Source: Chloroflexota bacterium (lineage in GTDB: Bacteria > Chloroflexota > Anaerolineae > UBA1429). Taken from it: a DNA stretch of 64,000 nt. The notes beneath the pieces were generated by a model that saw only the letters and a program-made list of their open reading frames with translations, made no database searches and was not told where the DNA came from. The DNA lies in contig JAIOAW010000009.1 of assembly GCA_019873625.1 (NCBI GenBank), positions 1-64,000 of the forward strand, in the 5' to 3' direction. The position numbers and the translations under genes were made by a program. How positions within the stretch are numbered: the stretch's first letter is position 1; the number at the start of each line of letters is the position of its first letter. This document shows, piece after piece, positions 1,203-48,340 of the stretch.

Positions 1203-2441
1203 ATGGAAACGCCGAGTTCTCGCTCTCAGCCGGCCCGAGGGCTTTTCGCCCTGATACGGCGCGTTGGCCAGGTCTTGGCCGATAGGCCCCCCTCTCACCA
1301 GAGGGTGTGGTCTATCGGCCTTCTCGTCCTCATCACGGGGGTCTCCTGGGCGCTCGTGGCCTGGCCGCTGGACTTTACCGACCTGTGGCGCTATTGGGAT
1401 GGCCCCCTCTATGCGACGGTCGCCAAGACGTTCTATCGCCCCGAGGCCGTGGCCGATAACCCCGTCCTCGTGGCCTATGGCATCGCGCCGATAGACCTCG
1501 CCCCCTTTCTCCTCGGTTACCCCCTCCTGACGCGCGCGCTCGCCCCCCTTTTCGGCTACGGAGCGAGTATGGTCTTTCTTTCGGTGCTCTTTTCGGCGGC
1601 AAGCGCCGTGCTCTTTTACCTCCTTTTGCAAGAGGCGCACCTCAGCGCGCGCCCCTTGTGGATGGGGTTTCTTTTCCCCTTCGTGCCCTACCGTTGGCTC
1701 ATCTACCGCTCGGTGGCGGCCACGGAGCCGATGTTCCTCGCGTGGACTTTGGGCGCCTTTTACTGCTACCAGAAACAGCGCCGTTGGGGCGCCCTCATCC
1801 TGGCGGCCTTGGCCTGCGTAACGCGCATCCAGGGAATCCTCCTCGTGCCCACCTTTCTCATCCTCGCCGCCCTGGATCGCTCCTTGCCCCCTTGGCAGAG
1901 GCTCAAGTGGGCCGCGCTGAGCCTTTTGGTCATCCCCTCGTGCCTTGGGGCGAACGTGGCCTGGCACACCCTCGTCTTTGGCACGCCTTTGGCCTATTTT
2001 GCGGCCAACTACCACATGCTGGGCCGTATCCCCTTCTGGCAGATGGTGCGCTACGCCCAGATGATGACCCAAGGCATCATCTCCATCGAGGGGTACTTGG
2101 GTTCACAACTGTATCTCATCCTGTATGCCATCAATCTCATCGGCCTGGCACGCCTGTGGCAGGCCGACCGCACGCGCGGCAAGATGCTCTTCGTCTATTC
2201 CCTGCTAGGTATGGGGTTCCTATCGCTCATCACGGCGGAGGACTTGGCGCGTTATATGCTCGCCATCGCGCCGTTCACGTGGCTCGTCGCCTTTGCGGAC
2301 CTGTGGGAAGATCGCCGTGTGGCTTGGGCCATGCCGCCCGTCATCCTTCTCACCTACCTCTACACGTGGAACCTCATCCCTCGCGGGGGGATTGATCCCC
2401 GCTTCGTGCCCGCGTTCATCGAGTGGTTGGCGCGGCCCTAA
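1203..2441 (+). CDS. Polytopic membrane protein, possible GT-C glycosyltransferase
   Basis: A 412-residue integral membrane protein with about ten hydrophobic segments after a basic cytoplasmic N-terminus. An early extracytoplasmic loop contains YWDGPLYATVAK, resembling the WDGxxY signature near the catalytic loop of PIG-V-like and other GT-C lipid-sugar-dependent mannosyltransferases. By analogy it could transfer a sugar from a polyprenyl donor on the outer membrane face; this is inference from topology and one motif. It follows the amidohydrolase by 7 nt, and its stop is followed by a multi-hairpin repeat. Confidence 0.6.
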   Translation: METPSSRSQPARGLFALIRRVGQVLADRPPSHQRVWSIGLLVLITGVSWALVAWPLDFTDLWRYWDGPLYATVAKTFYRPEAVADNPVLVAYGIAPIDLAPFLLGYPLLTRALAPLFGYGASMVFLSVLFSAASAVLFYLLLQEAHLSARPLWMGFLFPFVPYRWLIYRSVAATEPMFLAWTLGAFYCYQKQRRWGALILAALACVTRIQGILLVPTFLILAALDRSLPPWQRLKWAALSLLVIPSCLGANVAWHTLVFGTPLAYFAANYHMLGRIPFWQMVRYAQMMTQGIISIEGYLGSQLYLILYAINLIGLARLWQADRTRGKMLFVYSLLGMGFLSLITAEDLARYMLAIAPFTWLVAFADLWEDRRVAWAMPPVILLTYLYTWNLIPRGGIDPRFVPAFIEWLARP

Positions 2442-2477
2442 CTCGGCGCGGGCTGCGGAGGCAAGACCTCGATTCCG

Positions 2478-2585
2478 GAGCGCGGGCCTCCTAGCCCGCG
2501 GGCGCCGTGAGGCGCCTAATTCCATCTATGCGCCGCGTATAAGGGGCCCAGCGGCCCCTTCGCGAGGCAGGAGCCTCGCGCCCCT
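2478..2585. repeat. Intergenic multi-hairpin repeat, copy 1
   Basis: About 107 bp containing four successive inverted repeats: CGCGGGC/GCCCGCG, GGCGCC-GTGA-GGCGCC, AAGGGGCC-CAGC-GGCCCCTT and GCGAGGC-AGGA-GCCTCGC. A second copy at 8880-8986 is the same length and roughly 85% identical, with hairpin positions kept. It lies just after the stop of the membrane protein and before the promoter of the aldolase gene, so it may also act as a terminator or 3' end stabiliser. Confidence 0.8.
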
Positions 2586-2655: not shown

Positions 2656-3540
2656 ATGAAAGAGATCAGGGGCATCGTCGTGCCCGTGGTAACGCCCTTT
2701 TACCGCGACGAATCGCTCAACGAGGCCGGCCTGCGCACCATCGTGGATTACCTTGTCGCCAACGGCGTGCATGGCCTCTTCCCTTGCGGCAGCCAGAGCG
2801 AATTCTGGGCGCTGACGATGGACGAAAAGAAGCGGGTGATGGATATCGTCCTCGAACAGAACGCCGGGCGCGCCTTTGTGATGCCCTCTACGGGGGCCAT
2901 CACCACACGCGAGAGCATCGAACTCTCGCGCTACGCCGAGCGTGCCGGGGCAGATGCCATCTCGGTCATCACGCCCTTTTTCATCCGCCCATCGAACGCC
3001 GAGTTGGTAGAGCACTACTTGCGCATTGCTGAATCCGTCTCCATCCCCGTCCTCGCCTACAACAACCCAGACCGCACAAGCGTCCACCTCCCACCCAGCG
3101 TGGTAGCCGAGATTGCCCGCCGCGCCCCCAACTTTATCGGCATCAAAGATTCGAGCGGCGACCTCACGAACACGATGGGCTACATCTCGGCTTGCCCGGC
3201 GGGGTTCCGCACCTTTATGGGGCGCGATACGCTCATCTATGCCGGCCTGGCCTACGGCTGTGTGGGCGCGGTGGCGGCCACGGCCAACGTGGCGCCCGAC
3301 CTCGTGGTGGGCATCTATGAGGCCTTTATGGCGGGCGACTATGCCTTGGCCCTCGAGCGCCAGCGCCAGTTGGAACCCCTGCGCCGCGCCTTTACCCTTG
3401 GCTCCTTCCCCGTGGTCGTCAAAGACGCGATGGAACTTATGGGCCTCCCGGCGGGGCCTTGCCGTGCGCCGATCCAATCCCTCCAGGGCAAGGCGCGCGA
3501 GGAATTGATCGCCATCCTCAAAGGGATGGGCAAACTCTAG
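2656..3540 (+). CDS. DapA/NanA-family aldolase (dihydrodipicolinate synthase-like)
   Basis: A 294-residue class I aldolase-type TIM barrel. The Schiff-base lysine is Lys164 in GIKDSSGDL and the catalytic tyrosine is Tyr135 in AYNNPDR. The usual GTTGE loop is replaced by GSQSE at 45-49, so it is more likely a pyruvate-dependent aldolase or a keto-acid dehydratase/lyase than a true lysine-pathway DapA. A strong GGAGG precedes the ATG. A 2-hydroxyacid dehydrogenase follows after 16 nt, suggesting a shared pathway in which the 2-keto product is reduced; that link is inference. Confidence 0.85.
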   Translation: MKEIRGIVVPVVTPFYRDESLNEAGLRTIVDYLVANGVHGLFPCGSQSEFWALTMDEKKRVMDIVLEQNAGRAFVMPSTGAITTRESIELSRYAERAGADAISVITPFFIRPSNAELVEHYLRIAESVSIPVLAYNNPDRTSVHLPPSVVAEIARRAPNFIGIKDSSGDLTNTMGYISACPAGFRTFMGRDTLIYAGLAYGCVGAVAATANVAPDLVVGIYEAFMAGDYALALERQRQLEPLRRAFTLGSFPVVVKDAMELMGLPAGPCRAPIQSLQGKAREELIAILKGMGKL

Positions 3541-8771: not shown

Positions 8772-8879
8772 AATGCGGCGTGTGCCCCGTTGCGAGGTAT
8801 TGGGTGACTATGTGCCCCAGGGGGAACCGTTCCACTTGGCCTTTTCGGAGAGGCAGGCGCCTCGCGCTCCATCTCTTTG

Positions 8880-8986
8880 GAGCGCGGGCCTCCCGGCCCA
8901 CGGGCGCCGCAAGGCGCCTAATTCCATCTCCACGCAGGGTATAAGGGGCCTGGCGACCCCTTCGCGAGGCAGACGCCTCGCGCTCC
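8880..8986. repeat. Intergenic multi-hairpin repeat, copy 2
   Basis: Collinear with the copy at 2478-2585. Four hairpins recur: GGGCC-TCCC-GGCCC, GGCGCC-GCAA-GGCGCC, AAGGGG...CCCCTT and GCGAGGC-AGAC-GCCTCGC. The second loop changes from GTGA to GCAA, both GNRA tetraloops. It immediately follows the end of purN and could serve as the 3' end of the purine transcript. Confidence 0.8.
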
Positions 8987-9000
8987 GAGAGGCACCTACC

Positions 9001-9600
9001 CTACTCGAGGCCCAGCACCTTCTTGATGGCCTCGATGTAGAGGACGTGCTCTACCTCGTGGATGCGCGCCTCGAGGGTTTCGAGCGTATCTTCGGGGTAG
9101 ATGGGCACCTCGCGTTGGACGATGACCGGCCCCACGTCCACGCCTTCATCGGGGGCATAGTGCACCATCACGCCGGTATGGGTGATCTCCCCACGGCGAT
9201 AGGCCTCGTAGGCCCGTTCGATGGCATGCGTCCCGGGGAACATCCCCGGCAAGGCGGGATGAATGTTGATCACGCGCCAGGGGTAATGCTTGAGAAAGGC
9301 CATCGTGAAGACGTGCATCCACCCCGCCAGGCAGACCAAATCCACCCGGTAAGGGGCGAGTTTCGCCGCCAAATCGGCATCGTATTCCTCGCGAGTGCGC
9401 CCCGCGTCTCGATAGGGTTTGAAGGGATGATAGAGGGTGGGGATGCCGTGCTTCTTGGCGCGCTGGAGGCCGTAGGCGGCGATGCGGTTTGAGACGACCA
9501 CCACCACCCGCGTATCGGGCAGGGCGCCGCTCTCGCAGGCATCTATAATCGCTTGCAGGTTCGTGCCCGTCCCCGAGATGAGCACCGCGAGCCGATTCAT
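9001..9600 (-). CDS. purN: Phosphoribosylglycinamide formyltransferase
   Basis: GAR transformylase, 199 residues, transfers a formyl group from 10-formyl-THF to glycinamide ribonucleotide in step 3 of purine synthesis. It shows the N-terminal phosphate-binding ISGTGTNLQAI, the catalytic Asn/His motif INIHPALPG, and HYAPDEGVDVGP carrying the catalytic Asp. Length is standard. Its ATG overlaps the purM stop (ATGA). It is the last gene of the purine run. Confidence 0.95.
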   Translation of the reverse strand: MNRLAVLISGTGTNLQAIIDACESGALPDTRVVVVVSNRIAAYGLQRAKKHGIPTLYHPFKPYRDAGRTREEYDADLAAKLAPYRVDLVCLAGWMHVFTMAFLKHYPWRVINIHPALPGMFPGTHAIERAYEAYRRGEITHTGVMVHYAPDEGVDVGPVIVQREVPIYPEDTLETLEARIHEVEHVLYIEAIKKVLGLE

Positions 9601-32307: not shown

Positions 32308-35300
32308 TTATTTCGGTGCGACGAACTTGTAGAAGGTGGGCTTGCCGCCCTCGATCTTCACGATGGCCGCTTTCTTTACCGGGTTGTGCTGCGCATCGTA
32401 CGTGATCTGCCCAGACACCCCCTCATACTTGATCGCCGCCATCTTGTCCTTCACCACCGCCGGATCGTCTACCCCGGCCTCCGAGATGGATTGCAGCAGG
32501 ATCTTGGCCGCGTCATACGCCAACGTCGCCAACGCATCCGGCACCACCCCGTACTTGGCCTGGTACGCCTTCACAAAGTTCTGCACCACCGGCCGCGGAT
32601 CCGCCGGCGAGTAGTGGTTCGAGAAGTAACCCCCCTCAAAGAGGTCAAACCGCAACTCCGGCGAATCCCATCCATCCCCACCTAATAGCGTCGCCTTGAT
32701 CCCCTTCTCCTTCACTTGCGCCGCAATTAGGTTGTTCTTCGCATAGTAGTCCGGCAGGAACAATACGTCTACGTTCGCCGCCGCAACCTTCCCCAACACC
32801 GCCGAAAAGTCCGTGTCATCCTTCGTGTAGGCCTCGAACACCGGCACCGTGCCGCCCATCGCCTCGAACGACCCCTTGAAGTACTCCGCTAACCCCTTCA
32901 CATAGTCGTTCCCAACGTCGTACAGCACCGCCGCCGTCTTCGCCCCCAAGTCGTCCTTCGCAAAACTCGCCATCACCTCCCCTTGGAACGGGTCCAGGAA
33001 GCACGCCCGAAATACATACTGCTTCGTGCTCCCATCTTCGTTCACCGTCACCGCAGGGTTCGTCGAGGTCGGCGAAATCTGCAATACCCCGTTCGCCTCC
33101 GCTATCTGCGAAATCGGAATCGAAGCGCTCGAACACACTTCCCCAATGATGTACTTCACACCATCTTCAAAGATCACTTTGTTCGCCGCGTTCGCCGCCT
33201 CTTGCGCATCGCACTTTGAATCCGCCAGGACGACCTCAATCTGCCATCCCGCCGCCTTCGCCTCCTCAATCGCCATCAAGGCCCCGTCTCGCGTGGATTC
33301 CCCAAACGTCTTCACATCCCCGCTCAACGGCACCACGATCGCTACCTTCACCGGAAAGCCAGGCGCAGGCGCTACTGCAGGCATCGCAGCGGCTTCCTCT
33401 TCACCGGCGCCCTTGGGTGCGACGAACTTGTAGAAGGTGGGCTTGCCGCCCTCGATCTTCACGATGGCCGCTTTCTTTACCGGGTTGTGCTGCGCATCAT
33501 ACGTGATCTGCCCAGACACCCCTTCGTACTTGATCGCCGCCATCTTGTCCTTCACCACCGCCGGATCGTCTACCCCGGCCTCCGAGATGGATTGCAGCAG
33601 GATCTTGGCCGCGTCATACGCCAACGTCGCCAACGCATCCGGCACCACCCCGTACTTGGCCTGGTACGCCTTCACAAAGTTCTGCACCACCGGCCGCGGA
33701 TCCGCCGGCGAGTAGTGGTTCGAGAAGTAACCCCCCTCAAAGAGGTCAAACCGCAACTCCGGCGAATCCCATCCATCCCCACCTAATAGCGTCGCCTTGA
33801 TCCCCTTCTCCTTCACTTGCGCCGCAATTAGGTTGTTCTTCGCATAGTAGTCCGGCAGGAACAATACGTCTACGTTCGCCGCCGCAACCTTCCCCAACAC
33901 CGCCGAAAAGTCCGTGTCATCCTTCGTGTAGGCCTCGAACACCGGCACCGTGCCGCCCATCGCCTCGAACGACCCCTTGAAGTACTCCGCTAACCCCTTC
34001 ACATAGTCGTTCCCAACGTCGTACAGCACCGCCGCCGTCTTCGCCCCCAAGTCGTCCTTCGCAAAACTCGCCATCACCTCCCCTTGGAACGGGTCCAGGA
34101 AGCACGCCCGAAATACATACTGCTTCGTGCTCCCATCTTCGTTCACCGTCACCGCAGGGTTCGTCGAGGTCGGCGAAATCTGCAATACCCCGTTCGCCTC
34201 CGCTATCTGCGAAATCGGAATCGAAGCGCTCGAACACACTTCCCCAATGATGTACTTTACACCATCTTCAAAGATCACTTTGTTCGCCGCGTTCGCCGCC
34301 TCTTGCGCATCGCACTTTGAATCCGCCAGGACGACCTCAATCTGCCATCCCGCCGCCTTCGCTTCCTCAATCGCCATCAAGGCCCCGTCTCGCGTGGATT
34401 CCCCAAACGTCTTCACATCCCCGCTCAACGGCACCACGATCGCTATCTTCACCGGAAAGCCAGGCGCAGGCGCTACCGCAGAAGGCGCCGCGGCCACAGG
34501 GGCAACCCCCTTGCCCGAAATCCACTTGGCGTAGATTTGGTCATAGGTGCCATCGGCCTTGACCTTCTTGAGGCCCTCGTTGAAGGCCTTGAGGAGTTCC
34601 TGATTTTCGCCTTTGCGCACCACCAAGCCGTACCATTCGTCGGTAAACGGCTCGCCCACGATCTTGAGTTTGCCCTTGAACTGCTCCGAGGCGAGGGCGT
34701 AGTCGGCCGCGACGGGGGTATCCACCACCACGGCGTCGAGGTTGCCGCTCACGAGGTCGAGCAGGGCGAGGTCAATCGTATCGTACTCTTTGAGCGTAAC
34801 GCCCTGCATCTCTTGCACGGCGAGGGCGCCCGTGGTGCCGATCTGCGCGCCCACCGTCTTACCGGGTAGGTCTTTGTGGCTCTGGATGGCCGTCTCATCG
34901 GCGCGCACCACCACGGCCTGGCCGGCGTTGATGTACGGATCGGAGAAATCGTACTTGGCCTTGCGCTCCTCCGTAATGGTGACGGAAGAGAGGATAGCGT
35001 CATAATCGCCGCTCTCCAGGCCGGCAAAAATGCCATCCCAGGCCGTATTCTTGAACTCGACCTCGAACCCCATCGCTTTGGCGATGGCGTTCATCAGGTC
35101 AATATCAAAGCCGACGATGTTTTTGTTCTCGTCCACGAATTCCATAGGCGGGAACGCCGCATCGGTGGCAATGACGTATTTCGCTTTCGCCGCCGGCTGC
35201 TGAGGTGCTGCGGTCGGTTGAGCCGCCTGAGTGGGCTGAGCTGCCGCCGTGGTAGGGGTAGGCTGAGGCGTGCCCGCGGGCGGTTTAGCACAACCGCTCA

Positions 35301-48083: not shown

Positions 48084-48176
48084 CGGGAGTGGATGGGAGT
48101 CGAACCCACCAGGGCCACTTGCGCACCCCTCAACGGTTTTGAAGACCGCGGAGCCCACCGGGACTCATCCACCCCC
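48084..48176 (-). tRNA. selC: tRNA-Sec (selenocysteine, anticodon UCA)
   Basis: Read on the reverse strand, 93 nt with an 8-bp acceptor stem (GGGGGTGG/CCACTCCC), a 6-bp D-stem (GAGTCC/GGGCTC with a 4-nt loop), an anticodon arm with loop CTTCAAA giving UCA, a long variable arm, and a T-arm with loop TTCGACT on a 5-bp stem. Together this gives the 8+5 form typical of bacterial tRNA-Sec. The discriminator is G and CCA is not encoded. It reads UGA as selenocysteine with SelB. A T-rich stretch follows. Confidence 0.95.
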
Positions 48177-48340
48177 GTGCACTGAAACTATACCCTTTTT
48201 GGCCAAAGGCGTCAACCGTCCCTTTCGGGGTGTCCATCGAACCCCGGGGGCGCGCGGCAGGAACCTCGCGGCGCGGGCCAAGGGGGCCGCGCTTCGCGTA
48301 CGCACATCCAAGGCGGAACGGGGGCTTCCCCAAGCGTATT

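Follow-up and report, generated by a model that had tools for sequence, protein, structure and literature searches.

Two intergenic stretches of a Chloroflexota contig share a run of four hairpins, and they raise the question of whether the repeat is a structured RNA or a DNA element that is copied about the genome. The window, that is, the whole stretch of DNA analyzed, consists of 64,000 nucleotides of an Anaerolineae genome (assembly GCA_019873625.1, contig JAIOAW010000009.1). The assembly, here called G000, comprises 2.76 Mb in 47 contigs and is 97.6% complete. The first-pass annotation had left the choice between a genome-wide structured RNA and a REP-like family. As described below, the window copies are probably mobile palindromic repeats of the kind copied by REP transposases.

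The two copies in the window

The annotated repeat pair is present, and the two stretches are 85% identical over 108 nt. The best limits (Table 1) define direct repeats of 108 nt and lie one base 5′ of those first given, since the GGAG tag is then whole. In a blastn search of the genome, copy 2 is the top match to copy 1 after copy 1 itself (E 5.6e-29). Both copies have the same four hairpins in the same order.

Table 1. Repeat elements and their hairpins in the window
Feature	Positions	Strand	Remarks
Long-form element, copy 1 (GGAG ... CCCC)	2477-2584	+	35 bp after stop of ORF 1203-2441 (+), 71 bp before ORF 2656-3540 (+)
Hairpin 1, copy 1, type A REP	2482-2499	+	Tag GGAG 2477-2480, stem GCGGGC/GCCCGC
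Hairpin 2, copy 1, long form only	2501-2516	+	GGCGCC-GTGA-GGCGCC
Hairpin 3, copy 1, long form only	2541-2560	+	AAGGGGCC-CAGC-GGCCCCTT
Hairpin 4 and foot, copy 1, type B REP	2561-2584	-	Minus strand: tag GGGG (GGAG in most copies), then CGCGAGGC-TCCT-GCCTCGCG
Long-form element, copy 2	8879-8986	+	14 bp after stop of purN-like ORF 9001-9600 (-)
Hairpin 1, copy 2	8884-8901	+	One C-A mismatch
Hairpin 2, copy 2	8903-8918	+	Loop GCAA
Hairpin 3, copy 2	8943-8962	+	One mismatch
Hairpin 4 and foot, copy 2, type B REP	8963-8986	-	Tag GGAG on minus strand
Probable decayed short-form element, directly beside copy 2	8823-8870	+	Weak: 19.2 bits, E 0.11; hairpin 4 half clear by eye
Possible decayed element beside tRNA-Sec gene	48247-48295	-	Weak model match, 26.8 bits, E 0.0032

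The loops had been described as GNRA tetraloops. This holds for hairpin 2, which has GTGA and GCAA in the window and a GNRA loop in nine of the ten aligned long copies (GAAC in the tenth), but not for hairpins 1, 3 and 4 of the window copies, where the loops of copy 1 and copy 2 are TCCT/TCCC, CAGC/TGGC and AGGA/AGAC. Changes in the stems are tolerated, as was claimed, but several of the differences between the two copies break pairs. They include C-A at columns 7-22 in copy 2 and at columns 12-17 in copy 1, and GACC in place of GGCC in hairpin 3 of copy 2. Both copies fold better than the average of 200 shuffles (z -3.83 for copy 1 and -2.62 for copy 2). In neither copy does the minimum-energy fold consist of the four hairpins side by side, since hairpins 1 and 4 are inverted relatives of one another and pair together as well. 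Their loops are complementary for the same reason; a kissing interaction between them was dropped on inspection, since many of the listed copies have mixed loops (TCCC with AGGA, TCCT with GGGA).

Elsewhere in the window, next to the weak match at 48247-48295, lies a tRNA-Sec gene (48085-48176, minus strand, 78.4 bits in Rfam). The window also has a direct repeat of 300 nt, at 32312-32611 and 33413-33712, the two copies of which are 99% identical and 1101 bp apart.

The short unit and its dispersal

The earlier suggestion of a REP-like, genome-wide family is borne out by many further copies, which are extragenic and laid out as inverted pairs, and by a relative from the same bacterial family that carries a cognate gene for a REP-associated tyrosine transposase (RAYT). 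Copy 1 has 76 blastn matches in the genome (E <= 1). Many of these span only positions 1-40 or 67-107, because the usual unit is a short form of 47-50 nt made up of GGAGCGCGGGCCTCCYGGCCCGC, one to a few bases, and GCGAGGCRGGAGCCTCGCGCTCC. On the opposite strand the second half reads GGAGCGCGAGGCTCCYGCCTCGC, and the unit is therefore two GGAG-tagged hairpins with unlike stems, set face to face. The two inverted REPs are type A, GCGGGCC-TCCY-GGCCCGC, and type B, GCGAGGC-TCCY-GCCTCGC; their loops are of the same sense, and the feet of the unit are able to pair. The pattern GGAGCGCNNGCNTC occurs 84 times in the genome, compared to 10 times for the backward control. Nearly all copies carry the GGAG tag, with a single GTAG copy (L041), and many of the short copies are identical or nearly so.

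The long form seen in the window is rarer and probably derived. Hairpin 2, a spacer and hairpin 3 lie between the halves as a segment of 55-75 nt. The fetched stretches contain 73 paired elements, 62 of them short (47-50 nt) and 11 over 61 nt, of which ten are long forms; the remaining one, C1:5418, is a chance joining. The insert of the long form has 12 matches in the genome; in 3 of the 14 other genomes of the family it has partial matches only, all of them weak (E 0.003 or worse).

The search with a covariance model that had been proposed for this family was made with a model of the short form with closing feet (R1), the alignment of which includes two sequences from a relative in the same family, G004. 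There were 105 matches in G000, with 98 distinct starts and 96 places after neighbors were merged. Since long copies can be counted twice by R1, the genome is estimated to hold about 90 elements. The model also had 22 matches in G004, 16 in G006, where the set is more degenerate, 2 in G007 and none in the other 11 genomes of the family.

Most stems of the family are invariant. In the short-form alignment of 33 sequences, two of them from G004, 96.2% of the cells in stems are paired and the feet GGAGC/GCTCC pair in 92.1%. Two-sided changes were seen in 3 of 19 pairs (6 cells) and covariation is slightly above that of shuffles; the two-sided change in pair 11-18 stems from the two added G004 rows. 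The long-form alignment consists of ten copies, without five further inserts (C20 twice, C38, C22, C40), some of which are cut or damaged, and without the decayed C13 copy. Its covariation term is unfavorable (+1.01 kcal/mol), and a two-sided change is seen in 1 of the 28 predicted pairs. In 7 of 66 scored copies of hairpin 4 the stem is intact but the loop is of reversed sense (e.g. TCTC, TCCC or TCCT for RGGA), as it is in 1 of 66 of hairpin 1 (GGGA). Such loops in unchanged stems, in a minority of copies, fit a flipping or inversion of the palindrome at the level of DNA.

Gene context was obtained with a simple home-made codon-usage gene caller trained on the window. By this measure 72 of the 73 elements are outside called genes: tandem gaps hold 30 (14 in the direction of the genes, 16 in the opposite one), divergent gaps 19 and convergent gaps 9, and 14 are at contig ends; 1 is inside a called gene. 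Both window copies do follow coding regions, as first noted, at 35 and 14 bp past the stop, but 3′ ends are not the only places where the family occurs. Some elements form arrays with a spacing of 102-113 bp (C4, C19, C12). R1 detects an element at the purN locus of the window's genome but none at those of ten relatives; nine of these loci are informative downstream, the tenth (L203) being cut by a contig end. No conserved duplicated flank was evident in 72 scored flanks, which had only mild composition preferences; the relatives belong to other genera and are too distant to supply an empty site. Twelve contig ends have elements within 250 bp, at 18 of the 96 places compared to 0.8 expected, and the elements account for part of the breaks in the assembly.

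Another family of palindromes, CCCTCTCCC...GGGAGAGGG, in many cases with AGGGTGAGGGCC after it, occurs within 150 bp of 50 of the 73 elements (e.g. L003, L004, L022, L031). The 64-kb window holds three such 9-mers in all. The elements and this second family form a mosaic of two repeat families.

REP transposase genes and related systems

No match to PF01797/Y1_Tnp, NF047646 or a RAYT protein was found in the 97.6% complete assembly of the window's genome. The RAYT gene may be unassembled there, because contigs break at the elements, and the excess of elements at contig ends suggests that a short repeat-flanked gene is what such an assembly would lose. True loss of the gene is the main alternative. 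In G004 a RAYT ORF of 206 amino acids is present (L173:1294-1914; NF047646 106 bits, cut-off 80). Its clade has the N-terminus KGW.SRGYLPHYD. Three unlike pairs, GGGGCGCGGGTCTCTGACCCGC ... GCGAGGGAGGACCCTCGCGCCAC, surround the gene; two of them went into the R1 alignment, and the stem types and their order are those of the window's family. Each pair consists of a GGGGCGCGGGTC-hairpin and then a GCGAGGG-hairpin with the foot GCGCCAC/GCGCCCC. They differ from the window's family in a linker 10-13 nt longer, in the tag (GGGG or GTGG) and in one or two pairs of the stems. We infer that the elements are mobile and depend on a RAYT, and that G000 has or once had a RAYT of the G004 clade, since lost or left unassembled.

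More widely, NF047646 has matches in 53 of 80 relatives (E <= 1e-5), 27 of them above the cut-off, and 13 of 14 other genomes with the REP core have a Y1_Tnp match. The same core surrounds RAYT genes of Alphaproteobacteria, with six hairpins at L097 (Hyphomonadaceae isolate SJ474) and four at L103 (Alphaproteobacteria isolate CP_BE_RX_12). The ORFs at these two loci match NF047646 REP_Tyr_transpos above the cut-off (93.7 and 83.5 bits). The SJ474 genome has 45 REP-core matches, five of them within about 0.9 kb around the RAYT gene.

The hairpins at 30 RAYT loci of relatives number 51 for GTAG, 22 for GGAG and 15 for GTGG, compared to 0.5, 1.0 and 2.4 expected from shuffles. At least two GGAG hairpins were found at 9 of 30 RAYT loci in the set chosen for the REP core, a count biased upward because the genomes were picked for holding it, at 6 of 30 loci of relatives not so chosen, and at none of 10 purN control loci. 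A RAYT tree was made with 43 sequences, 17 of the 60 loci being left out for want of an ORF that passed the motif filter. The GG and GT labels each need three changes on this tree (shuffled means 7.4 and 7.5), and none of 500 shuffles was as low; the GG count has 22 labeled rows, including one duplicate gene (L107 = L167). The G004 RAYT groups with those of L182, L102, L116, L097 and L100 at a weak, open fork (support 80/93); this fork falls within a group of 18 with good support (98/95), to which a GTAG group belongs as well. On this tree, then, the GGAG tags do not form a single clade.

Other tagged hairpins were seen at RAYT genes of relatives. In two members of the same family (L177 in G001, L180 in G009) the genes are flanked by different GGAG-tagged REPs, GGAGTGCGCAGGC-TTGCCTGCGC and GGAGTGCGGCAG...CTGCCGC, with unlike-stem pairs at L177. 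The RAYT locus L185 (G056) has a dense array of 19 GTAG hairpins on both strands, spaced about 43 bp apart.

Among known systems, REPINs and BIMEs, such as the REP doublets of Pseudomonas and the Y and Z2 pairs of E. coli, are close in form. These too are inverted pairs of tagged hairpins, intergenic (in about 90 copies here) and found in tandem arrays with spacers (102-113 bp here), and the available text on E. coli describes two REP types in one pair (PMC6006769). The window's family differs in having GGAG for GT[AG]G, in the lack of a RAYT match in its own assembly and in the two extra middle hairpins of the long form. The GTAG and CGTC REP superfamilies resemble it as short GC-rich palindromes with an unpaired end tag, dimers with tags outside, and mostly extragenic placement (PMC3733652, in the part available). 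The foot of the hairpin here carries GGAG, not GTAG or GT[AG]G, and no CGTC tag was found. The degenerate tags described in the same available text are GYAG, GYRG, GTRG, GTMG and GTGG, not GGAG, and REPs of these superfamilies are said to favor tandem and convergent gaps (PMC3733652). The fit to that placement is imperfect, because divergent gaps are also frequent in the window's family. Class 3 TnpA-Y1 repeats of Planctomycetes and Acidobacteria also have an atypical tag and are high-copy hairpins beside Y1 genes, but their tag or foot, as given in the available text, is CnGA rather than GGAG (PMC6006769). The RAYTs found here match NF047646. Because the tag is not GTAG and the assembly of the window's genome lacks the cognate gene, the family is placed outside the named REP superfamilies. 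Described REPs carry GT[AG]G, and the GGAG tag is a new departure from it. In the open-licence literature, nothing was found that joins GGAG to REP elements and a tyrosine transposase, and the core GGAGCGCGG gave unrelated titles among the papers listed. No match to the element was found in a plasmid collection searched in distant mode.

Identity of the element and its core in other phyla

Taken together, these findings point to a REPIN-like non-autonomous mobile DNA element, in which two unlike GGAG-tagged REPs in inverted orientation have been spread by a RAYT to about 90 intergenic copies; we give this reading a probability of roughly 0.85. The elements have two inverted REP hairpins with a short spacer and the tags outside, occur in high copy number, and are extragenic as judged with the home-made gene caller. 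A cognate RAYT gene is present in G004 and was not found in G000. Observed directly are the family, its architecture, its dispersal and the association of this architecture with a RAYT gene in G004. By analogy with characterized REP systems, each REP would fold as a hairpin in single-stranded DNA. The RAYT, an HUH tyrosine transposase, would recognize the hairpin and its tag, and cut and rejoin the strand, and by this means the pair could spread to other intergenic places. The element itself is most likely a passive pair of DNA hairpins. This reading accounts for an intergenic repeat that recurs and that, from the raw sequence, could be mistaken for a new RNA.

That it is such an RNA, acting in cis or in trans as a 3′-UTR element, an attenuator or a set of RNA-stability hairpins with GNRA tetraloops, now appears quite improbable. 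The window copies fold stably and both follow genes, nine of ten hairpin 2 loops keep GNRA, and the short-form stems are 96.2% paired with covariation slightly above shuffles. GNRA-type loops stabilize hairpins of single-stranded DNA as well, and so do not single out RNA. A cis-regulatory RNA would keep a fixed orientation to the gene it regulates, but the elements are divided among 14 sense, 16 antisense, 19 divergent and 9 convergent placements. This use of tandem, divergent and convergent gaps on either strand, together with the absence of the element at the purN loci of relatives, argues against a strand-specific structured RNA. Most stems are invariant, the two-sided change in pair 11-18 comes from the two G004 rows, and the covariation term of the long form is unfavorable. 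When Rfam was searched with the whole window, as had been suggested, tRNA-Sec alone was above threshold, and a lax threshold gave only chance-level miRNA and viral matches. No intrinsic terminator (hairpin and T run) was found at copy 1; one lies beside copy 2, on the plus strand at 8856-8868, but outside the 108-nt unit, and in 6 of the 73 elements TTTT lies no more than 10 nt from an end. In their placement the elements behave like extragenic DNA repeats dispersed in the genome, and not like an RNA bound to a single strand or gene. Transcribed copies may have effects as RNA, by analogy with other REPs for which, in the available text, action as RNA has been proposed (PMC3733652).

Two other explanations accept a DNA repeat and differ in how it is kept or moved. 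The copies could be a frozen, vertically inherited population, retained as sites for host proteins such as gyrase or a nucleoid protein and no longer moving. The lack of a RAYT in the G000 assembly and the more degenerate set in G006 agree with this, but the many identical or nearly identical short copies suggest recent copying, and the gene may simply be missing where contigs end at elements; we regard such a relic as unlikely. The feet GGAGC/GCTCC, paired in 92.1% of cells, resemble terminal inverted repeats, as expected of a classical MITE with short ends GGAGCGC...GCGCTCC moved by a DDE transposase. Each half, however, is a complete hairpin, which recurs singly in other phyla (the Acidobacteria loci L051-L091), no conserved duplicated flank is evident in 72 scored flanks, and the cognate gene beside the same architecture in G004 is a Y1/HUH gene. 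A MITE is thus scarcely credible.

The most interesting part is the occurrence of the REP core in several phyla. One exact 23-nt pattern of the core is shared by the window's genome and records with the names Verrucomicrobia, Fimbriimonadaceae, Holophagae, Thermoanaerobaculales, Alphaproteobacteria and Opitutaceae. The core is present in 43 stretches, the record names of which also include Reyranella, Hyphomonadaceae and Vineibacter. REPs are usually described, in the available text of PMC6006769, as species-specific and GT[AG]G-tagged. We tentatively put at slightly under even odds the existence of a GGAG-tagged REP superfamily, served by one trans-phylum RAYT clade with a fixed DNA specificity and diversified into single REPs, like pairs, unlike pairs and the four-hairpin long form. 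If so, REP sequence would track the RAYT clade, not the species. With its GGAG tag and its place beside RAYT genes, the trans-phylum core makes it possible to test directly whether the transposases of distant hosts read tag and loop alike. At L051-L091, from Holophagae and Thermoanaerobaculales of the Acidobacteria, the core is mostly single, has no inverted partner and is followed by a different conserved 3′ tail (ATCGTG or AACGG).
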